Of a DNA stretch of 64,000 nucleotides, positions 17,277-25,435 are shown one piece after another. Below the pieces are notes generated by a model, which searched no databases, was not told the DNA's origin, and saw only the letters and a program-made list of their open reading frames with translations. Every line of letters begins with the position of its first letter. Position 1 is the first letter of the stretch. The stretch is from positions 2,356,001-2,420,000 of the forward strand of contig CP114179.1 of assembly GCA_039555135.1 (NCBI GenBank), in the 5' to 3' direction. The position numbers and the translations under genes were made by a program. Source of the DNA: Phycisphaeraceae bacterium D3-23. Its GTDB lineage: Bacteria > Planctomycetota > Phycisphaerae > Phycisphaerales > Phycisphaeraceae.

Positions 17277-17921
17277 TCACCGCGCCCCCACCGCCTGCTC
17301 GATCAGCGTATCGACGATCCCCGCGCGGTCGAACGCCGTGTGCCGACGGCGACACCCTGCACACGCCCGGCAGGGCCGCTCACCCGGACGGTTGCAGGAC
17401 CACGCCAACGTCCAGTCCACGCCCAGCTGCCCGCCCAGCTCGACGACCTGTGCATCGGTAAACTCGGCCAAGGGGGTGTCGATGCGTGGCGCGGGCTCCT
17501 GCTCGGTCTGCGCGAGGTGTTCGCAGAGCATCGCCTGCTCGGTCGCCTGCGCCGCCGGCTTGGTTTGGCCGTTGACCGAGACGGGCCAGACTACTGTGCC
17601 CGCCTGCTGATGCCGCGCCTCCGCCAGGGCCGCGAGCAGTAGCTGCGGCTGCGCAAGGACACCCATCGGCCCGCCGTCGGGCAGCCGGCCGTAGCCGTGG
17701 CCGTACAGATGCGGGATCGACAACTCCGTCACCCGCGTCAGGGCAAGCGACTTCGCTTGGCGGCGCACAAACGTCACACGCGTCGCCCGGGCCTCTCGGC
17801 CGTCGTCGACATGCAGCAGCGTCACACGCGGGGCCGGGTCTTCGCCCCGCGCCATCGCCGTCGCCACCAGCGACCGCAGCCCGCCGTTATTCAGGACCAT
17901 CACATGGGGCGTCGTGCTCAT
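17277..17921 (-). CDS. QueC-like protein with degenerate PP-loop
   Basis: A 214-residue protein related to 7-cyano-7-deazaguanine synthase (QueC). The C-terminus has the QueC zinc site: W-S-C176 then C184-x2-C187-x2-C190 and the typical RRRHTAFDRAGIVD. The N-terminal nucleotide-binding loop, S-G-G-x-D-S in active QueC, reads NNGGLRS (residues 11-17), so the catalytic-looking Ser and Asp are replaced. It may therefore not adenylate its substrate in the usual way. Start 17921 is chosen because the fold begins there. Other queuosine genes are absent here. It sits beside a phage-type repressor, so a link to DNA or tRNA deazapurine chemistry is possible (inference). Confidence 0.7.
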   Translation of the reverse strand: MSTTPHVMVLNNGGLRSLVATAMARGEDPAPRVTLLHVDDGREARATRVTFVRRQAKSLALTRVTELSIPHLYGHGYGRLPDGGPMGVLAQPQLLLAALAEARHQQAGTVVWPVSVNGQTKPAAQATEQAMLCEHLAQTEQEPAPRIDTPLAEFTDAQVVELGGQLGVDWTLAWSCNRPGERPCRACAGCRRRHTAFDRAGIVDTLIEQAVGAR

Positions 17922-18143
17922 GCCTCTGTTATCGGCCACGTCCGTTCTGCCGGGCGAATGTTGCCGGGCCGTGCGCACAACACGCGGCGCTGCCTATGCG
18001 CATGCCCGGGAACCCACTGCGCTCTAACCCGCGCCCCCACAACGATCAATAATCATTGAACTACGCTGCGCGTGAGGCCGTGCGCACAACCCTGGCCGCC
18101 GGGCCAAGAGGGGGAGCCACACCAACTACGCATCCCGGGGGGC

Positions 18144-19268
18144 CTACAGCCGGCTCATCCGCCACACCGCCCGGAACATCCCCGCCACCTGCTCGCGGTC
18201 CACCGTCCTGGGCTCAAACTCCGGGTTCAGTGGTTGCAAACGGATCCGCCCCGCGTCCTCGTCCAGAAACACCCGCTTGAAAGTTGTCTCATGGTCCGGC
18301 TCCAATCGCACAAAGCAGTCGCACCCGTCGACCACATCCGCCAAGGGCGAAAACACAACGATGTCGCCCTCGCTGTAGCCCGGCTGCATCGACGCCCCAC
18401 ACACCGTCGCCGCGAACGCATCGGGGTCGTTGCCGCCATGCACCCCGGTGTAGCCCGGCACGACAACCAGCCCGTCCCCCACCCGCGCGGGGTAGTCGAG
18501 GTCGGTGAACCCGGCCGGGTACCCCGCCGCGACCTTGTTGATCAGCGGGACGGATGCGGGCGAGGTCTCGGGCCTCGGGTCTTGGGCCTCGGGTTTCGGG
18601 AAAGACAGCCACGACGTTTTTTGACCCCCGAAACCCACGGATCCCCCGGATTGAACGGTCTCCCCCTCGAAGCCCACGGATTCCATCCGTGGGTCCGCCC
18701 CGTTTTCATCGATGCCAAGTCCGCCATCGACAGCAGCACCCGCCACGCCCCCGCGTGTGACGCGGCGGCTACCTTCGGCCGCTTGTTTCGACACGCCCGG
18801 CGTTTCTTCTCCGCCCTGCGACCCTTTACGGCCCCCCCCGGTTTTCTCGCCTCGCGCCTGACGCCTGTCTTCTCCCGACAGCACCGTGTTCACGCGCCGA
18901 CCCAGCTGCCCGCTTCGGTACAGCGCATCAAGGTTTTTGCCCGTCCCGCGGTCGCGTTTGGACGCCACTTGGCGAAGCCACTGCGCAAGCTCGCGCCCCC
19001 GGCTGGCGCGTTCCTCCGCCTCCGCCAGACGGGCGCGGATGGCGGGCGGGGTGCGCTCCCACTGCGCGGCGCGTTCGAGCTCGCCGGGGTTGAGTTGCAG
19101 CACGGTGCCGAGCTTCGTGAGGATCTTGGCCGAGGGCGGATTCTCGACGCGGTGGTTCTCGATCATCGACAGGTAGCTTCGGGTGACGCCCGACGCCTGG
19201 GCGACGTCGGAGAGCGTTAGCCCCAGCGACAGGCGTCGTTCACGGAGCTGGTTGCCGAGCTGCTGCAT
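18144..19268 (-). CDS. XRE-family repressor with S24 (LexA/CI-like) peptidase domain
   Basis: A 374-residue regulator. Residues 5-60 are an XRE helix-turn-helix (TLSDVAQASGVTRSYLSMIE). Residues about 250-374 are a LexA/CI-type S24 domain with GASMQPGYSEGDIVV (putative nucleophile Ser293) and TTFKRVF (general-base Lys331). Such repressors are released by self-cleavage after DNA damage. The linker between them, about residues 105-240, is unusually long and low in complexity; residues 190-202 are encoded by a CCCACGG intergenic-type repeat and residues about 221-237 by GGGTCTCGGG-type text. It is divergent from the gene at 19417 and probably controls the phage-like island. Confidence 0.82.
   Translation of the reverse strand: MQQLGNQLRERRLSLGLTLSDVAQASGVTRSYLSMIENHRVENPPSAKILTKLGTVLQLNPGELERAAQWERTPPAIRARLAEAEERASRGRELAQWLRQVASKRDRGTGKNLDALYRSGQLGRRVNTVLSGEDRRQARGEKTGGGRKGSQGGEETPGVSKQAAEGSRRVTRGGVAGAAVDGGLGIDENGADPRMESVGFEGETVQSGGSVGFGGQKTSWLSFPKPEAQDPRPETSPASVPLINKVAAGYPAGFTDLDYPARVGDGLVVVPGYTGVHGGNDPDAFAATVCGASMQPGYSEGDIVVFSPLADVVDGCDCFVRLEPDHETTFKRVFLDEDAGRIRLQPLNPEFEPRTVDREQVAGMFRAVWRMSRL
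18668..18696. repeat. Inverted repeat, CCCACGG family copy 5, inside a coding region
   Basis: CGAAGCCCACGGAT and ATCCGTGGGTCC form the same hairpin as at 9224 and 37245, but here it lies in frame within the repressor gene and encodes GADPRMESVGFEG on the minus strand. Confidence 0.75.
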
Positions 19269-19416: not shown

Positions 19417-19827
19417 ATGAACCTGAAACACGCCACCCGAGACGACCAGCGACGCCGGTCTGACCTCCGGCTGGCCCCCGAACAACTGGTCCGCCTCGCC
19501 GACGCCCTGCCCGACGAGGAGGCCCGGCTGATCCGCGCCCGCTATGGCGAAGGGCTCACCTACCGCGACCTCGCGCGGCGCTACCGCTCCGAGCCCCGCC
19601 GTATCCGCCGACGCATCGACCGCATCGCCGACCGGATGCAGTCGGCCGAATTCCGCTTCACCCTGCTCCACGAAAACGAGCTCACCCCCAAGCTCCGCAA
19701 GACCGCCAAGCTCCTCTTCCTCCAGGGATGCAGTCTCCGCCACACCGCACAGGCCACCCACAGCACCCTCCACCGCATCCGCACCGACCGCGCCACCCTC
19801 CAGACCCTCGCCCGCGCGGCGGGATAA
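19417..19827 (+). CDS. Sigma-70 region 4-like HTH protein
   Basis: A 136-residue protein with a sigma region 4-like helix-turn-helix: LPDEEARLIRARYGEGLTYR and DLARRYRSEPRRIRRRIDRI, followed by a second helical unit with a similar look (TAKLLFLQGCSLRHTAQATH). There is no region 2, so it is unlikely to be a complete sigma factor. The start at 19417 has CCGGAGGG upstream. It is divergent from the S24 repressor gene, with a 148-bp intergenic region that probably holds the operator. It is the first gene of the plus-strand island. Confidence 0.65.
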   Translation: MNLKHATRDDQRRRSDLRLAPEQLVRLADALPDEEARLIRARYGEGLTYRDLARRYRSEPRRIRRRIDRIADRMQSAEFRFTLLHENELTPKLRKTAKLLFLQGCSLRHTAQATHSTLHRIRTDRATLQTLARAAG

Positions 19828-19921
19828 CGCGGTCAATCACAACGAAACCAGACATCGGAACAGCCGGCGGACCACGGACGCCGGTTGTCCGTGTCTTGCC
19901 CTTGGAGTTGCTCGATAGCAC

Positions 19922-20626
19922 ATGCCCACACCCATCACCCTCCAACTCGAACACAGCGTCACATGCCATGCCGCCGCGTCGCCGCGCACCGCGCAGGTCG
20001 CGGGGATGTTCGGGCTCGACCCGGCGGGCGACCGCGATGTCGTCATCATCCCGCCGACCGAGCTGACCCTCGGCCCGGGCAGGGTCGTCTTCATCACCGG
20101 CGCATCAGGCGGCGGCAAGTCCACGCTGCTCCGATTGATCGCTGACGGGATCACGCAGCAGCCCGCAGGCGGTCGGCCGGCGGTGATCCAATTCGACGCG
20201 CTCGCGCCGGACGTTGGCCAAGCGCTGGTCGATGGGTTTGACGCCGATGTACCGCTGAAGGATGTGCTGCGTTGGCTGAGCGTGGCCGGGCTTAGCGATG
20301 CGCGGGTGATGCTGCGCCGGCCCGGCGAGCTGTCCGACGGCCAACGGGCCCGGCTGCTGCTCGCGCACGCCATCGCTCAGGCCGAGCGGTGCGACGCACC
20401 GTGGGCGGTGGTGTTGGCCGACGAGTTTGGCGCGACGCTGGACCGGCCCAGCGCCAGGGCCGTGGCAGCGGGCGTGCGTAAGTGGGCGTCGCGCGCGGGG
20501 GTCTGTGTGGCCGCCGCGACGACACATGACGACCTGTTGGAGCCGCTGTGCCCGGACACGCTGATCGACAAGGGCCCGGGTGCCGCGATTGAGGTGCTGG
20601 AGCGCGAAGTGTCCCGTCCTGTTTAG
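19922..20626 (+). CDS. ABC-type ATPase of phage-like GNAT-associated group
   Basis: A 234-residue soluble ABC ATPase. Walker A is GASGGGKST (about residues 60-67), the signature is LSDGQRARLLLAHA (137-150), Walker B is WAVVLADEF (161-169) and the H-loop is TTHDD. No membrane helices or permease partner exist, so it is not a classical transporter. It is followed by a GNAT gene; COG2401 proteins, as known from archaea and phages, fuse such an ATPase to an acetyltransferase. The last codons and the TAG stop lie inside a GTCGCCCAACGGGC inverted repeat that separates the two genes. It is part of the island with ParB- and terminase-like genes. Confidence 0.78.
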   Translation: MPTPITLQLEHSVTCHAAASPRTAQVAGMFGLDPAGDRDVVIIPPTELTLGPGRVVFITGASGGGKSTLLRLIADGITQQPAGGRPAVIQFDALAPDVGQALVDGFDADVPLKDVLRWLSVAGLSDARVMLRRPGELSDGQRARLLLAHAIAQAERCDAPWAVVLADEFGATLDRPSARAVAAGVRKWASRAGVCVAAATTHDDLLEPLCPDTLIDKGPGAAIEVLEREVSRPV

Positions 20627-20728
20627 CCGTCGCCCAACGGGCGGGCGCGCGTTCGACCGCGCTGAAGTCAGATGTGTACGAGTACCCGGCGCGTCGTCGA
20701 CGCGCCGCCCGTTGGGCGACGGCTAAAC
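20621..20728. repeat. Long inverted repeat, GTCGCCCAACGGGC family copy 2
   Basis: GTTTAGCCGTCGCCCAACGG at the left is mirrored by CCGTTGGGCGACGGCTAAAC at the right. The left arm supplies the TAG stop of the ABC ATPase gene, and the element fills nearly all the gap to the GNAT gene. Confidence 0.88.
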
Positions 20729-20746
20729 AATCGCCTGTGCGCACTT

Positions 20747-21547
20747 ATGCCGATCCACCTCGACACAGCCTGTCTGGCCAAACGCTTCGCCGCGCTGCCC
20801 GCGCCGGCGCAGGGCGATCGGCTTGACCTGGTGCCGGGCACCGCGGCCGACTACGCCGCGCTCGCCGCGCATCACTACCGCTCGGCTCGGCCGGCGACGA
20901 TGATGCGCATCCTGACGCTGCGCGACCCCGGCGCGACGGTCGTGGACCGTTTCCTGCACCGCCCGCCGCAAGGCAGCCCGGTCGCGGTCCTGGTCGAGTC
21001 GCTGCCGACGCTGTCGTGCAAGCTGCGCGACCTGGCGCTGGATCGGCGCTACGCCGACCTGCCCGCCCGGATGCGCGGCAAGCTGATTAACCAGGAGGTG
21101 CGCTGCATCAGCCGGGTGATCGTCGACCCGCGCTACCGCGGACTCGGGCTCGCGGTCGAGCTGGTGCGTCACGCGCTGGCGACCGCGACGACGCCCTACA
21201 CCGAGGCGCTCGCGGCGATGGGCGCGGTAAGCCCGTTCTTCGAGAGGGCGGGCATGCTGGCGTACCGCCGGGAACGCCACGCGCACGACGAACGCCTGCT
21301 CGCGGCGCTGGGTTCCGTCGGGCTCAAACCCGAGGCACTCAATCAGCCGGCGCGACATCGGGCCGCGCTGGCCCGGCTTACGGATAGCCAACGCGCGTGG
21401 GTCGAGCGCGAGCTTGGACGCTGGTATCGCTCGGCGGTCGGACGCGGCGGCGGCGCGTCGCGCGACCCGGCCGAGCACTGGGCTACGGCACGGCAGAAGC
21501 TGATGTCGCTGCCCGTGTACTACCTGAGCGACAACCGTAACACCTGA
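20747..21547 (+). CDS. GNAT-fold protein paired with the ABC ATPase
   Basis: A 266-residue protein. A GNAT-like core is recognisable: CISRVIVDPRYRGLGLAVEL (beta4 and the acetyl-CoA pyrophosphate loop R-x-x-G-L-G) followed by FFERAGMLAYRRER, which resembles the beta6-alpha4 end of acetyltransferases. The C-terminal 80 residues are helical and of unknown role. It is preceded by a long inverted repeat and followed 14 bp later by the ParB-like gene. In COG2401-type proteins this domain is fused to the ATPase, so the two gene products probably act together. The acetyl acceptor is unknown. Confidence 0.7.
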   Translation: MPIHLDTACLAKRFAALPAPAQGDRLDLVPGTAADYAALAAHHYRSARPATMMRILTLRDPGATVVDRFLHRPPQGSPVAVLVESLPTLSCKLRDLALDRRYADLPARMRGKLINQEVRCISRVIVDPRYRGLGLAVELVRHALATATTPYTEALAAMGAVSPFFERAGMLAYRRERHAHDERLLAALGSVGLKPEALNQPARHRAALARLTDSQRAWVERELGRWYRSAVGRGGGASRDPAEHWATARQKLMSLPVYYLSDNRNT

Positions 21548-21561
21548 CCCCGGAACCCGCC

Positions 21562-22149
21562 ATGCCGACACCGCTCCCGATCACACGGCTCTGCGCCCAC
21601 CCCGCGAACAGCAACGTCATGCCGGCGAAGCTGCTCAAGAAACTCGCCACCCACATCGAGCGATCGGGACGTTACCCGCCGGTGATTGTCCGGCCCTTCG
21701 AGGGGGCGTACCAGATCCTCGATGGCCACCACCGCGTGAAGGCGATTGAATCCCTGGGCCACACCGAGGCGCAGTGCGAGCTGTGGGAGGTCGACGACCG
21801 CGAGGCGTTGGTGCTGTTGACAACGCTGAACCGCTTGGAGGGCAGCGACGACCCCAAGAAGCGCGGGGCGCTGGTGAGTGCGTTGATGGAGGGGATTGAG
21901 CTGCCTGCTTTATCAAAACTGCTGCCCGAGGACTCGGGCCGGCTGCGGGCACTGGCTTCGCTGCATACCACCCCGCCGCCGCGCCCGATGCGTCCCGAGG
22001 CGTTGAAGGCGTCGCCCGTCGCGGTGACTTTCTTTGTCACGGCGGACCAACGCAAGGCCTTAGAGCGCCGATTGCGTGAGGCCGGGGGCTCGCGCGAATG
22101 CGCTTTGCTTGAACTGACAGGAGTGCTCGATGCGACCCAAACGCAGTGA
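21562..22149 (+). CDS. ParB/sulfiredoxin-fold protein
   Basis: A 195-residue protein with an N-terminal ParB-like domain: LCAHPANSNVMP, PVIVRPFEGAYQILDGHHRV, KAIESLGHTEAQCELWEVDD. DGHHR corresponds to the nucleotide-binding box II of ParB (G-x-x-R). The C-terminal half is a helical extension. In chromosomes ParB binds parS and CTP; in phage-type operons this fold can act as a nuclease or in modification systems. Here it sits between a GNAT and terminase-like genes and has no ParA partner nearby, which argues against a partition role. It overlaps the next gene by 20 bp. Confidence 0.8.
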   Translation: MPTPLPITRLCAHPANSNVMPAKLLKKLATHIERSGRYPPVIVRPFEGAYQILDGHHRVKAIESLGHTEAQCELWEVDDREALVLLTTLNRLEGSDDPKKRGALVSALMEGIELPALSKLLPEDSGRLRALASLHTTPPPRPMRPEALKASPVAVTFFVTADQRKALERRLREAGGSRECALLELTGVLDATQTQ

Positions 22150-22666
22150 CAGGGACGCGGCTGCCCCGGGCGGCGAAGATGGCCATGTCGAGCCGCCCGG
22201 TCCCGCGACGTCGGTGGTGCTGCTGCACGAGCTGGCGCGGGCGGAGGACGATGTCCTTGCGCTGGGCGAGCGGCATGGCGTCGGGCTGTCCAAGCTCTCT
22301 GCCTGGGCGGCGCAACCCAAAACGCAGCGCACCGTCGCGGGGCTGTGCCTGCTCGCGGACCTGCAGACCCAGCTCCTGCTGTCGCGCTACCGCCTGGTCG
22401 CGGCGACCCGTCTGGTCGGCCAAGCCACGGGGCAGGACGATTCACTCAGCCCCGAGCAGGTGCGCAAGGCGTGTGTCGACCTCTTGAAGATCGAGCTCGA
22501 CCGCGTCGCAGCGGTGTCGCTGGACGCGGTCGAAGCGCTGGACGACCCGGCGTTTGAGTCGTTGAAGCGCGCGGTATTGGGGGAGGGAGTGTCCACAGAT
22601 TTCGCAGATGGGGAAGGGTCAGAACCAGTAGGCAAGGGTGGAGAAGTACTGGGAGATGGTGCGTGA
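22130..22666 (+). CDS. Terminase small-subunit-like protein
   Basis: A 178-residue mainly helical protein. It contains HELARAEDDVLALGERHG, a probable helix-turn-helix around GVGLSKLSAWAAQPKTQR, and a long central helix ending in ARKACVDLL-like QVRKACVDLLKIELDRV. Size, composition and position immediately upstream of a terminase large subunit fit a small terminase subunit that recognises DNA and recruits the motor. The start has ACAGGAG upstream and overlaps the ParB-like gene by 20 bp, so translation is coupled. The C-terminal 40 residues are Gly/Glu rich and may be unstructured. Confidence 0.55.
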   Translation: MRPKRSDRDAAAPGGEDGHVEPPGPATSVVLLHELARAEDDVLALGERHGVGLSKLSAWAAQPKTQRTVAGLCLLADLQTQLLLSRYRLVAATRLVGQATGQDDSLSPEQVRKACVDLLKIELDRVAAVSLDAVEALDDPAFESLKRAVLGEGVSTDFADGEGSEPVGKGGEVLGDGA

Positions 22667-22684
22667 CGTCGGTGCGGCGCGCTC

Positions 22685-22715
22685 GACACCCACGGATGGA
22701 ATCCGTGGGCTTCGG
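22685..22715. repeat. Inverted repeat, CCCACGG family copy 6
   Basis: ACACCCACGGAT and ATCCGTGGGCTTCG lie in the gap between the small and large terminase-like genes. The gap also has an AT-rich stretch at about 22737-22785 that could carry a promoter. Confidence 0.75.
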
Positions 22716-22820
22716 CGTCGGGTGTGTTGTTGAAGTGACGTGTTTTTATGATTTTTCCCTCATTTTTGTTTTCTATCGGTGTCATCTGTGGAATCTGAGG
22801 GGCGCTCCCCTCTACCGACC

Positions 22821-24461
22821 ATGAAGCAACGCATCCAAAAAACAACACGCCGATCGGGCCTGCGTCTGCGTCAGTTGCAGCAGCTTCGGCCGCGCACGGC
22901 GGGTGAGTTGCACCGATTTGTGGAGTCGGCGTTCGGGCTGTCGGTGCCGACGCGGTCGGTGTCGGGGCTGGGGTGTTCGCCGTTTGATTACCTGCGCGAC
23001 AGCTACTTCGGCGCGGTGGATGCGTCGGGCGGGCCCGGCTCCGGGGGCGGCGGCGATGCCGTGGTGTGGGCCAGCCGAGGCGGGGGCAAGACGATGCTCG
23101 GGGCGGCGGCGACGCTGCTGGATTTGTTGTTTCGGCCGGGTGTGCAGGTGCGGGTGCTGGGCGGCTCGCTCGCGCAGAGCGAGAAGATGTATGAGCACCT
23201 GCGGACGCTGCTGGATCGCCCGGTGCTGCAAGGCGGGGGCGGCGTGCTGCGGGGCGAGCCGACGGCGCGGCGGGTGGTGCTCGCCAACGGCAGCCGGGTG
23301 GAGTTGCTTGCGGCGAGCCAGCGGAGCGTGCGCGGCACGCGGGTCCACATCCTGCGGTGTGACGAGGTCGAGGAGATGGACCTTGCCGTGTGGGAGGCGG
23401 CGCAGCTCGTGACGCGGTCGGGACTGTGCGGGGGCGAGCTCGTCCACGGCCGGGTCGAGGCGTTGTCGACGATGCACCGTACGGGCGGGCTGATGTCGGC
23501 GTTGACGACCGCGGCGCAGCCGACGGGTAACACAGCCGGAGATCAAAATGATGCTGCCACGCCGCTGGCGGTTGGCCCGGCCGGGCACGTCGGCCGTCGG
23601 CTGTACCGCTGGAACGCGCTGGATGTGGTGGCGCGGTGCCCGGCCGAGCTGCCTTGCGAGGGGTGTGCACTGTGGTCGGACTGCGGCGGGCGGGCGAAGC
23701 AGGCGTCGGGTTTTGTGTCGGTCGAGGACCTGCTGCGGTCGCGCAGCCGTGTGAGTGACCGGGTGTGGGATTCGGAGATGATGTGCCGTCGGCCGCAGAC
23801 GCGAGACAGCGTGTACTACCAGTTTTTGCGGGACAAACACGTGCTTCGGGATGATGATCCGCGTCTTCGCGTTGCTCAGACACGGCATGGTGGAGGGGAT
23901 ATAGGCGGTGACTTGCGGGACGGGTATTGGGTGGGCGGGATGGATTTCGGGATGCGGGGCGAGACGACGTTGTTGTGGGCGTGGGTGGCGGGGCCGGGCC
24001 CGGACGCGGCGGTGCATATCGTCGCGGAGTATGCGGCGGCGGAGCGGACGGTGTTGGCGAACCTCGACGCGGCCGAGGCGTTGGCGGACCGGCTCGGGTT
24101 GCCCGGGCCCGCAGGGATGCGCTGGCTCTCGGTCGATCCGTCGGGGGATCAAAGGAACGGCCAGACGGGCGACACGAACCTCGCGGTGCTCCGCGCGGCG
24201 GGCTGCAAGGTCAAGGCCCTGCGCTCCCGGCTGTCGGTCGGGATCGAGCGCGTGCGCAGCCGACTCGACCACGGGCTGCTCACGCTGCACCCGCGTTGTG
24301 AGCGGATGGCTGCGGCGCTGGAGGCGTACCACTTCGACCCCAAGCACCCGCACCGCGAGGAGCCGGTGAAGGACGGGCCCGACCACCTCTGCGATGCGCT
24401 GCGGTATCTGGTGATCGCGCAGGACGCGGGGGGTCGGGGTGTGACGGTCCGGGACTATTGA
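22821..24461 (+). CDS. Terminase large-subunit-like ATPase/nuclease
   Basis: A 546-residue protein with the two-domain plan of a phage DNA-packaging motor. ATPase: Walker A WASRGGGKT (residues 83-91), Walker B HILRCDEVEEMD with D181/E182. RNase H-like nuclease: acidic residues in GGMDFGMRGETT (D375), LSVDPSGD (D439) and KDGPDHLCDALRYL (D521 or D525). An insert with four Cys (273, 279, 282, 288) may bind zinc. Key residues are intact, so it is probably active. No portal, capsid, protease or tail genes are near, suggesting a domesticated or satellite-type module. ATG 22821 lacks a good ribosome-binding site; GTG 22779 would add 14 residues. Confidence 0.82.
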   Translation: MKQRIQKTTRRSGLRLRQLQQLRPRTAGELHRFVESAFGLSVPTRSVSGLGCSPFDYLRDSYFGAVDASGGPGSGGGGDAVVWASRGGGKTMLGAAATLLDLLFRPGVQVRVLGGSLAQSEKMYEHLRTLLDRPVLQGGGGVLRGEPTARRVVLANGSRVELLAASQRSVRGTRVHILRCDEVEEMDLAVWEAAQLVTRSGLCGGELVHGRVEALSTMHRTGGLMSALTTAAQPTGNTAGDQNDAATPLAVGPAGHVGRRLYRWNALDVVARCPAELPCEGCALWSDCGGRAKQASGFVSVEDLLRSRSRVSDRVWDSEMMCRRPQTRDSVYYQFLRDKHVLRDDDPRLRVAQTRHGGGDIGGDLRDGYWVGGMDFGMRGETTLLWAWVAGPGPDAAVHIVAEYAAAERTVLANLDAAEALADRLGLPGPAGMRWLSVDPSGDQRNGQTGDTNLAVLRAAGCKVKALRSRLSVGIERVRSRLDHGLLTLHPRCERMAAALEAYHFDPKHPHREEPVKDGPDHLCDALRYLVIAQDAGGRGVTVRDY

Positions 24462-24595
24462 CGGGCTGGCGCGTCTGGGTGCGCTCGCTTCGCTTGTTCT
24501 TTTTGTAAATGCTTCAAGCGGCGCGGCTGCGCGTCCGAAAACTCCGGGGTAAGCAGGCATTTCAACAACAGGCAACGAACAAGCGAGGAGATGGG

Positions 24596-25435
24596 ATGAG
24601 TCAGGGCTGGATGCGGGTACGGGAAGCGGCGCACCTGATGGGGGTGAGTCAGACGACGGTCCGCCGTCGGATGGAGGCCGAGGAGTTGCGTAGCCGGGTG
24701 GGTCGATCGGGACGCCAGGAGGTGTTTCTGCCGGCGAAGCTTCGGCGAGCGCTGGAAGCGGCGCAGACGACGCCTTGCCCGCCCGGGCACCTGGAGCGCG
24801 CCAAAGCCAATCAAGACGACGCTGCAGCATCGGCGGGTGGGCCGGTGAATGCGGCGCAGGCCGCGCCGGGCGGCTCCGGCCACTCGGAGGCCGGCTCGAC
24901 ATCCAGCGATACAACGACCCACGACGCAGAGCCGCCGGTGCCCCCGGGCATCGACATGGTCCGGCGGTACGAACGGCTGGCGGGCGGGAGCCTGATCCTG
25001 GCCCAGCAGCACAGCGACGAGCTCCAGAAGCACACGGCGACGGCCTTCGAGCAGCTGGCCCACACGCGGAACCAGCTGCGCGAGGTGCGGCGGGTGGCGC
25101 TCACGGGCTGGGCATGTTGCGCGGCGGCGTTGGTGTTTGGGCTGTTCTTTTCGATCACGTTCGGCGTCGGCATGAGCCGGGCCCAGGCCGCGGCCGCGGC
25201 GAGCGAGGCCTATGCCGAGCAGGCGGAGAAACACGCGGCGGCGCAGGAGCGTGAGTACCGCCGCAGCTTGCCGGTGCAGGCGGCGCAGCAGGCCAGCCAA
25301 GGCATCCCCGCGGTGGCGGTGACACCCATTGTCTCCGAGACGGCGTCGCGCCCTGTGCGTGGGCAGCGCGACCCGCGTTTGGTGGACCGGACGCAGAGCG
25401 GGCCGACCGCGTCTGTACCGACGGTAACAGACTAG
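24596..25435 (+). CDS. HTH protein with membrane anchor, end of phage-like island
   Basis: A 279-residue protein. Residues about 5-50 look like an excisionase-type helix-turn-helix (MRVREAAHLMGVSQTTVRRR, then a recognition of GRSGRQEVFLPAK). A disordered Ala/Gly/Pro linker follows. Residues about 155-190 form a coiled-coil-like helix leading into one membrane helix (WACCAAALVFGLFFSITFGV), then a charged helix EAYAEQAEKHAAAQEREY. The start at 24596 has AGGAG 6 bases upstream. A DNA-binding domain linked to a membrane anchor next to a terminase could tether DNA to the membrane (inference). It converges on the peptidase gene at 25442. Confidence 0.6.
   Translation: MSQGWMRVREAAHLMGVSQTTVRRRMEAEELRSRVGRSGRQEVFLPAKLRRALEAAQTTPCPPGHLERAKANQDDAAASAGGPVNAAQAAPGGSGHSEAGSTSSDTTTHDAEPPVPPGIDMVRRYERLAGGSLILAQQHSDELQKHTATAFEQLAHTRNQLREVRRVALTGWACCAAALVFGLFFSITFGVGMSRAQAAAAASEAYAEQAEKHAAAQEREYRRSLPVQAAQQASQGIPAVAVTPIVSETASRPVRGQRDPRLVDRTQSGPTASVPTVTD

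Follow-up and report, generated by a model that had tools for sequence, protein, structure and literature searches.

A packaging and control module of a probable gene-transfer-agent-like system in the class Phycisphaerae

Introduction

Known gene transfer agents stem, to our knowledge, from a handful of lineages. In one of them, RcGTA of the Alphaproteobacteria, the major capsid protein belongs to the Phage_capsid family. A clustered set of packaging genes of another kind is found in phages that we call T5-like (the label is our own), which are complete phages of 109-120 kb: in the annotated records of BUCTxx99, hairong and RHph_X66, genes for ParB, an ABC ATPase, a GNAT-like protein and the large terminase (TerL) lie directly before portal and capsid. 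Here we describe a locus with such packaging genes in a 64,000-nucleotide stretch of chromosome (hereafter the window; C1:2356001-2420000 of the single-contig, 4.62-Mb genome G000) from Phycisphaeraceae bacterium D3-23. We take it, with a probability of roughly three in four, to be the half that handles packaging and control in a gene-transfer-agent-like system, derived from a domesticated phage and common to the class Phycisphaerae.

Results

Gene content of the module

Seven open reading frames, all in one direction, occupy positions 19417-25435 of the window, just as the first-pass annotation had described, and its assignments as helix-turn-helix (HTH), ABC ATPase, GNAT, ParB-like and TerL proteins are backed by Pfam and PHROG matches. 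The conserved unit is framed differently: it begins one gene earlier, at a divergent S24/XRE repressor, stops at TerL, and spans 2374144 to 2380461 on C1. The features are, in window coordinates:

18144..19268, minus strand: S24/XRE repressor of the LexA/CI type, which opens the module in divergent orientation (Peptidase_S24 E 1.5e-15, and HTH_3)
19417..19827, plus strand: small sigma-70 region-4-like HTH protein (Sigma70_r4 E 2.1e-7)
19922..20626, plus strand: ABC ATPase (ABC_tran E 4.3e-11; phrog_293 E 2e-24)
20747..21547, plus strand: GNAT acetyltransferase-like protein (phrog_886 E 6.9e-9; Pfam match weak)
21562..22149, plus strand: ParB/Srx-like protein (phrog_723 E 1.6e-13; DGHHR invariant)
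22130..22666, plus strand: candidate small terminase, TerS (sits before TerL; compare T5-like phages)
22821..24461, plus strand: large terminase TerL, with ATPase and nuclease (phrog_2 E 5e-14)
24509..25435, plus strand: HTH protein with a single transmembrane segment, a neighbour outside the conserved module (HTH_17 weak; hydrophobic stretch near residue 202)

TerL appears to be an intact motor. Its Walker A/B and nuclease residues, which the first-pass annotation had called intact, are invariant across 18 aligned rows, 70 of 77 TerLs passed a strict motif test, and the AlphaFold model (pLDDT 82.0) has the large terminase of phage D6E as its best Foldseek match (E 2.3e-15). A search with the Pfam family PF03237 did not recover TerL even in G000 itself. 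In the repressor, the Ala-Gly cleavage site, the serine (G.SM.P) and the lysine (TFKR) are conserved in 12 aligned rows. The small sigma-like HTH protein is probably an activator. Next to the ABC ATPase, a transporter partner was not seen.

Structure prediction was less telling for the upstream neighbour of TerL. The TerS candidate is modelled as an all-helical protein with a long helix (mean pLDDT 76.9); it had no family match in Pfam and PHROG scans and no significant match in the PDB (best 2ao9, a phage protein, E 1.6), so that the name TerS is positional. We also observed a cluster of four cysteines between the two domains of TerL in the 18 aligned rows, three of them invariant and one nearly so. 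The pattern is missing in a subset of more distant relatives, and it might form a metal-binding insert.

Conservation of the module in relatives

The order of an S24 repressor divergent from HTH, ABC, GNAT, ParB, TerS and TerL recurs, with gaps at single loci, in 20 stretches of 16-20 kb around TerL relatives. The neighbourhoods of the module vary among these stretches, and the flanking genes look housekeeping-like where they could be recognised (names given by reading the sequences, not from a database). A broader set of 100 loci (L035-L134), partly redundant as some genomes occur in both sets, contains 71 loci with more than 5.5 kb upstream of TerL; among these, GNAT is present in 68, HTH and ABC in 64 each, the S24 repressor in 56, ParB in 46 and TerS in 44. 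In several f2-type loci ParB is reduced to a remnant of 57-75 amino acids and TerS was not found.

ABC and GNAT form a single protein in 17 of the 54 named loci in which both domains could be placed, which agrees with the link through COG2401 to which the first-pass annotation had pointed. The module is syntenic across genera, families and orders, mostly as a single copy. Over the 201 genomes of the order, TerL was found in 112 and the GNAT profile in 106 (two of these matches weak).

The last gene of the co-directional run, the membrane HTH gene, is a local neighbour and not part of the module: among the 100 loci it has homologues in three other genomes (L035 and L055, which are one genome; L056; and, weakly, L045). 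The suggestion that it anchors DNA handling to the envelope thus loses its footing. On the other side, a QueC-like gene at window positions 17277-17978 adjoins the module (PADLOC QueC model E 6e-7), as it does in one other of the 20 loci.

A head cluster outside the window

The absence of portal and capsid genes noted earlier is true of the window and not of the genome. A second module, the head cluster, comprises a portal, a scaffold, an SU10-type major capsid protein and about ten further genes, and extends from C1:2337044 (portal) to 2349811 (a lipoprotein-like gene). It ends 24 kb before the packaging module begins, with about 38 kb between capsid and TerL. The impression of an island without virion genes was thus an effect of the window edge, since portal and capsid sit just outside it. 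The capsid gene itself, at C1:2339316-2340410, lies about 16 kb ahead of the window start and was recovered as one strong copy when its family was searched over the 201 genomes of the order (PF17236 E 2.6e-91). A genome-wide statement that virion genes are missing altogether had seemed to follow from PF05065, PF04860 and phrog_12, the last a portal family. These gave 28, 29 and 25 scattered positives over the 201 genomes and none in G000; the statement was overturned by the capsid cluster of family f9.

Within the head cluster of G000, profile matches include SPP1_portal (E 1.4e-17), SU10_MCP (E 2.1e-91), a lectin-like domain (E 1.2e-17) and a TIGR03790 protein scoring above the family cut-off. 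The cluster also encodes a protein of 212 amino acids, one that may be tail-like, a small coiled-coil membrane protein and a lipoprotein-like protein, the last named by eye; by eye, too, the N-terminus of a protein of about 90 amino acids is hydrophobic. The remaining proteins of the cluster had no convincing assignment. A baseplate-hub match for one of nine members was weak and was not used. The cluster was compared in 20 stretches from 19 genomes: portal, capsid and the 212-amino-acid gene are present in all 19, and the scaffold in 18. In several f1 genomes and one f9 genome, a sigma-54-type activator gene, recognised by eye, lies divergently beside the portal (L270:1-849, L272, L273, L276, L283, L288, L454, L459, L232).

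Linkage and co-occurrence of the two modules

The two modules are joined in some relatives. In G568 (family f108), a single locus of about 23 kb runs from repressor, HTH, ABC, GNAT, TerS-like and TerL genes through portal, scaffold, capsid and the 212-amino-acid gene to the membrane protein and lipoprotein, with a few other genes interspersed and housekeeping-like genes on both sides (names by eye). No integrase, replication or lysogeny genes were recognised in this locus and its flanks by eye, without a profile search, apart from the CI-like repressor. GNAT, TerL, portal, scaffold and capsid are also adjacent in G576. In the related f9 genome G449, the HTH-ABC-GNAT part lies about 30 kb from TerL with head genes in between (SPP1_portal E 4.5e-13, a scaffold-like gene and an SU10-type capsid, E 3e-81), so that both halves fall within about 32 kb.

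The same association is seen in presence and absence over the 201 genomes. The PF17236 capsid is found in 109 of them; TerL and capsid occur together in 102 genomes, TerL without the capsid in 10 and the capsid without TerL in 7, while 82 genomes lack both (Fisher p 4.5e-36, with no correction for relatedness). The corresponding counts for TerL and GNAT are 103, 9, 3 and 86. No association was found between TerL and the usual prophage families in these genomes (PF05065 p 0.68, PF04860 p 0.31, phrog_12 p 0.40). Beyond the order, at least ten genomes from other orders of the class have strong TerL matches, and among the matches listed no genome of that kinship was negative. In 170 genomes of the class, TerL was scored in 116, many weak, phage-like matches included, and the capsid in 78. 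TerL, portal and capsid are all chromosomal in G000, as would be expected of a gene transfer agent.

Descent and selection

Trees of TerL, capsid and RpoB were built from 27 genomes. The TerL tree has 19 of 24 splits in common with that of RpoB (rho 0.80; maximum of 999 permutations 0.38). All three trees separate the order from the other genomes by a single branch, which is poorly supported in the capsid tree. Median dN/dS was 0.15 for TerL (55 pairs), 0.16 for capsid (90), 0.21 for portal (70), 0.24 for GNAT (22) and 0.17 for ABC (26), the pairs being non-independent and those with dS of 3 or more excluded. Vertical inheritance across the clade, clearer for TerL than for the capsid, together with purifying selection is the pattern of a gene transfer agent. 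The sporadic occurrence with an integrase or attachment site that marks prophages and satellites was not seen: distribution and trees are non-sporadic, and an integrase, sought by eye only, was not noticed.

Phage and viral relatives

The packaging genes resemble those of T5-like phages, as judged from sequence, and the capsid does not. Profiles built from the Phycisphaerae proteins matched T5-like phage proteins with E-values of 1e-60 and 6e-58 for ABC, 3e-27 to 5e-25 for TerL, 7e-20 to 4e-12 for GNAT and 2e-12 for ParB; because this database held only 19 proteins, the bit scores of 36-195 are the better guide. The portal and capsid of the same phages had no match to the new head profiles at E 0.1.

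A close phage relative was not found. Phage records gave a single TerL match (29.5% identity over 17% of the query), 203 capsid matches, all below 60% and the best-covered at 32.9%, and 16 portal matches, with identities of 21.5-24.8% among the matches listed; plasmid records had no TerL match. In the phage and viral collections the G000 capsid reaches at most about 37% identity, except in two contigs of the viral collection at 64%. Solved structures include relatives of this capsid.

Several viral contigs deserve mention in their own right. One of the two 64% contigs, L338, holds the whole head cluster and in our judgement looks like bacterial DNA. The phage-like contig L334 (L334:6734-18057) carries the other such capsid amid otherwise unrelated phage-type genes, which may point to an exchange of genes with a phage or to a further satellite. 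L335, with relatives of both TerL (176 bits) and capsid (37% identity), is a candidate for the kind of phage that was ancestral to the system. Viral-contig TerLs were rejected as the origin: no relative exceeds 38% identity, and many are broken into short open reading frames. On contigs L135-L176 they often stop after about 310 amino acids, amid many copies of an open reading frame of 165-185 amino acids that clusters with the TerL pieces (94 members; no PHROG match for the one tested). Perhaps these pieces and frames represent homing elements or split terminases.

An element interrupting the capsid gene

In six genomes that were checked (L277-L282; families f1, f2 and f3), an element of 10.5-11.6 kb splits the capsid gene at the same site, after about codon 57 (for example L277:5505-16507). 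Genes common to these inserts encode a large serine recombinase, an AAA-domain protein and a Phage_capsid_4/gpT-like capsid protein of their own. The C-side junction carries CAGACGGG in all six genomes, and the N-side junction carries its complement in five of the six. The PF17236 match table over the 201 genomes hints at several more interrupted capsid genes.

A lead in strain ZRK32

The cultured strain ZRK32 (CP066225) has both modules with the complete set. PMC10945688 reports that this strain, when given nitrate or ammonium, releases hexagonal particles about 30 nm in size and that the cells are not killed; it also reports a 21.9-kb extrachromosomal phage. The deposited phage OP650935 (L453; 21,900 of 21,911 bases, unverified, partial and unannotated) had no match to any profile of the system. 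At the usual packing density, a 30-nm head would by our estimate hold only about 3-4 kb, so the particles may differ from the 21.9-kb phage. They are a candidate for the agent described here.

Discussion

Proposed function

Our best reading is that a class-wide gene-transfer-agent-like system has hitherto gone unreported. The literature on gene transfer agents and planctomycetes or Phycisphaerae, on independently evolved agents and on T5-like packaging genes (PMC7947584 and PMC13055281 among it), as represented by titles and abstract openings and with preprints not covered, yielded no such system among the papers listed. Of the options raised by the first-pass annotation, a domesticated packaging motor or gene-transfer-agent-like module best fits the synteny, the mostly single copy, the vertical signal and the intact active sites.

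From the genes we infer that the system is expressed and induced, forms particles, packages host DNA and transfers it, and we propose the following course. The S24 repressor would silence the system until self-cleavage, probably stimulated by RecA, releases the HTH-ABC-GNAT-ParB-TerS-TerL operon; self-cleavage on DNA damage is established for the LexA/CI family. The sigma-like HTH protein may then turn on the head cluster. ABC, GNAT and ParB, with TerS, would probably prepare, choose or mark DNA, its ends or the start sites of packaging, and the fusion of ABC and GNAT in some loci argues that these two act together. TerL would dock at the portal, fill small heads with chromosomal DNA and cut it, and the membrane protein and lipoprotein might assist release. 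Several lineages have lost ParB and TerS yet retain TerL and ABC-GNAT, which suggests a switch to sequence-independent packaging. This loss would fit packaging without a recognition site, the feature that defines a gene transfer agent.

Points against and alternative explanations

Several observations weigh against this interpretation. For a tail function, searches of Pfam, PHROGs, NCBIfam and PDB sequences gave nothing convincing, and the capsid gene is broken by the insert in some genomes. The capsid tree follows RpoB less closely than does that of TerL (11 of 24 splits in common, rho 0.63, permutation maximum 0.41) and does not recover family f1, which an approximately unbiased (AU) test does not reject (p 0.08). 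Joint control of the two modules found no backing in the upstream regions: a search for sigma-54 promoters before the portal was negative (27 regions had a candidate site, and one of them, L298, beat most of its shuffles, as chance predicts), and words common to the repressor and portal upstream regions were not clearly beyond shuffles that preserve two-letter blocks only, with gene starts estimated, and gave no shared operator. Ten TerL-positive genomes of the order have no capsid. In two of these genomes, G025 and G026, the stretches near TerL showed no head gene save one of lipoprotein-like type in G026; the module is thus able to persist by itself. In G011 (L459, G011:C33), portal, scaffold and later genes remain, the capsid is only a fragment and TerL has a stop, which shows that decay does happen, apparently here of the whole system.

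This decay is one of the points that favour cryptic or satellite prophage remnants, that is, two loci left behind by mobile phages or satellites whose frequent re-entry is followed by decay. All parts of the system are of phage type, T5-like phages keep ABC, GNAT and TerL close together, and related though distant viral contigs exist. Set against this, the system is found in over half of the order's sampled genomes, mostly in one copy, with a vertical TerL signal and low dN/dS, the flanks are housekeeping-like, neighbours are conserved across genera and families, and no close phage relative is at hand. Nor is the block confined to complete prophages; of the inactivating mutations that the first-pass annotation had thought of as counter-evidence, in-frame stops were flagged in G011 and G079 among the TerL matches listed. 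Taken together, we regard remnants as unlikely.

A somewhat lower chance still falls to a capsid tamed for some use other than DNA transfer, such as a storage compartment, a killing particle or an anti-phage decoy. The lack of a clear tail would suit such a use, and the lectin-domain and TIGR03790 proteins of the head cluster could serve binding or digestion. An empty compartment requires neither a portal nor a motor, however, and here purifying selection maintains both, the motor intact, in association with the capsid. A stand-alone, capsid-independent module for DNA processing or defence, to which the ten capsid-less genomes and the loss of TerS and ParB in some lineages could point, is very improbable given the capsid in 102 of 112 TerL-positive genomes, the contiguous locus of G568, and PADLOC results that comprise only generic local ATPase-, HTH- and ParB-type matches and no specific defence family.

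Implications

The gene-transfer-agent-like reading can be extended, as a tentative proposal, into a wider history. The agent would be ancient, class-wide and of mixed origin, with T5-like packaging and an SU10-type head, and ABC-GNAT-ParB would license chromosomal DNA. It would be parasitised by serine-recombinase satellites with a separate capsid gene, which integrate at one exact site in the capsid gene and maybe hijack packaging, and the ZRK32 particles could be the agent itself. If satellites do target the capsid gene, gene transfer agents themselves can be parasitised.

Should the system be what we propose, phages would have been tamed independently once more, this time in Planctomycetota, from another capsid lineage and together with an ABC-GNAT-ParB device. 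The system would also provide a route for gene exchange in a widespread bacterial group. It also offers a setting in which to ask what role the ABC-GNAT-ParB genes of phages play. More generally, one half of a system can pass for a compact "island" while the rest lies beyond the stretch under study.

Comparison with known systems

The system has phage genes without a full phage in common with phage-inducible chromosomal islands (PICIs), and differs from these in being widespread, vertical and not sporadic; an integrase or attachment site was noticed at neither locus. The major capsid family PF17236 is that of SU10-type phages; the identity of the G000 protein to capsids in the phage and viral collections is at most about 37%, save for the two contigs at 64%. 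In its clustered ABC, GNAT, ParB and TerL homologues the module is like the packaging region of T5-like siphophages, which are complete phages with a portal and capsid of another kind. From RcGTA it is set apart by a capsid that matches SU10_MCP/PF17236 and not PF05065, by the ABC-GNAT-ParB genes that accompany TerL and by its host class. Like RcGTA, it has virion genes, TerL, portal and capsid among them, that lie on the chromosome at more than one locus and appear to be passed on vertically.

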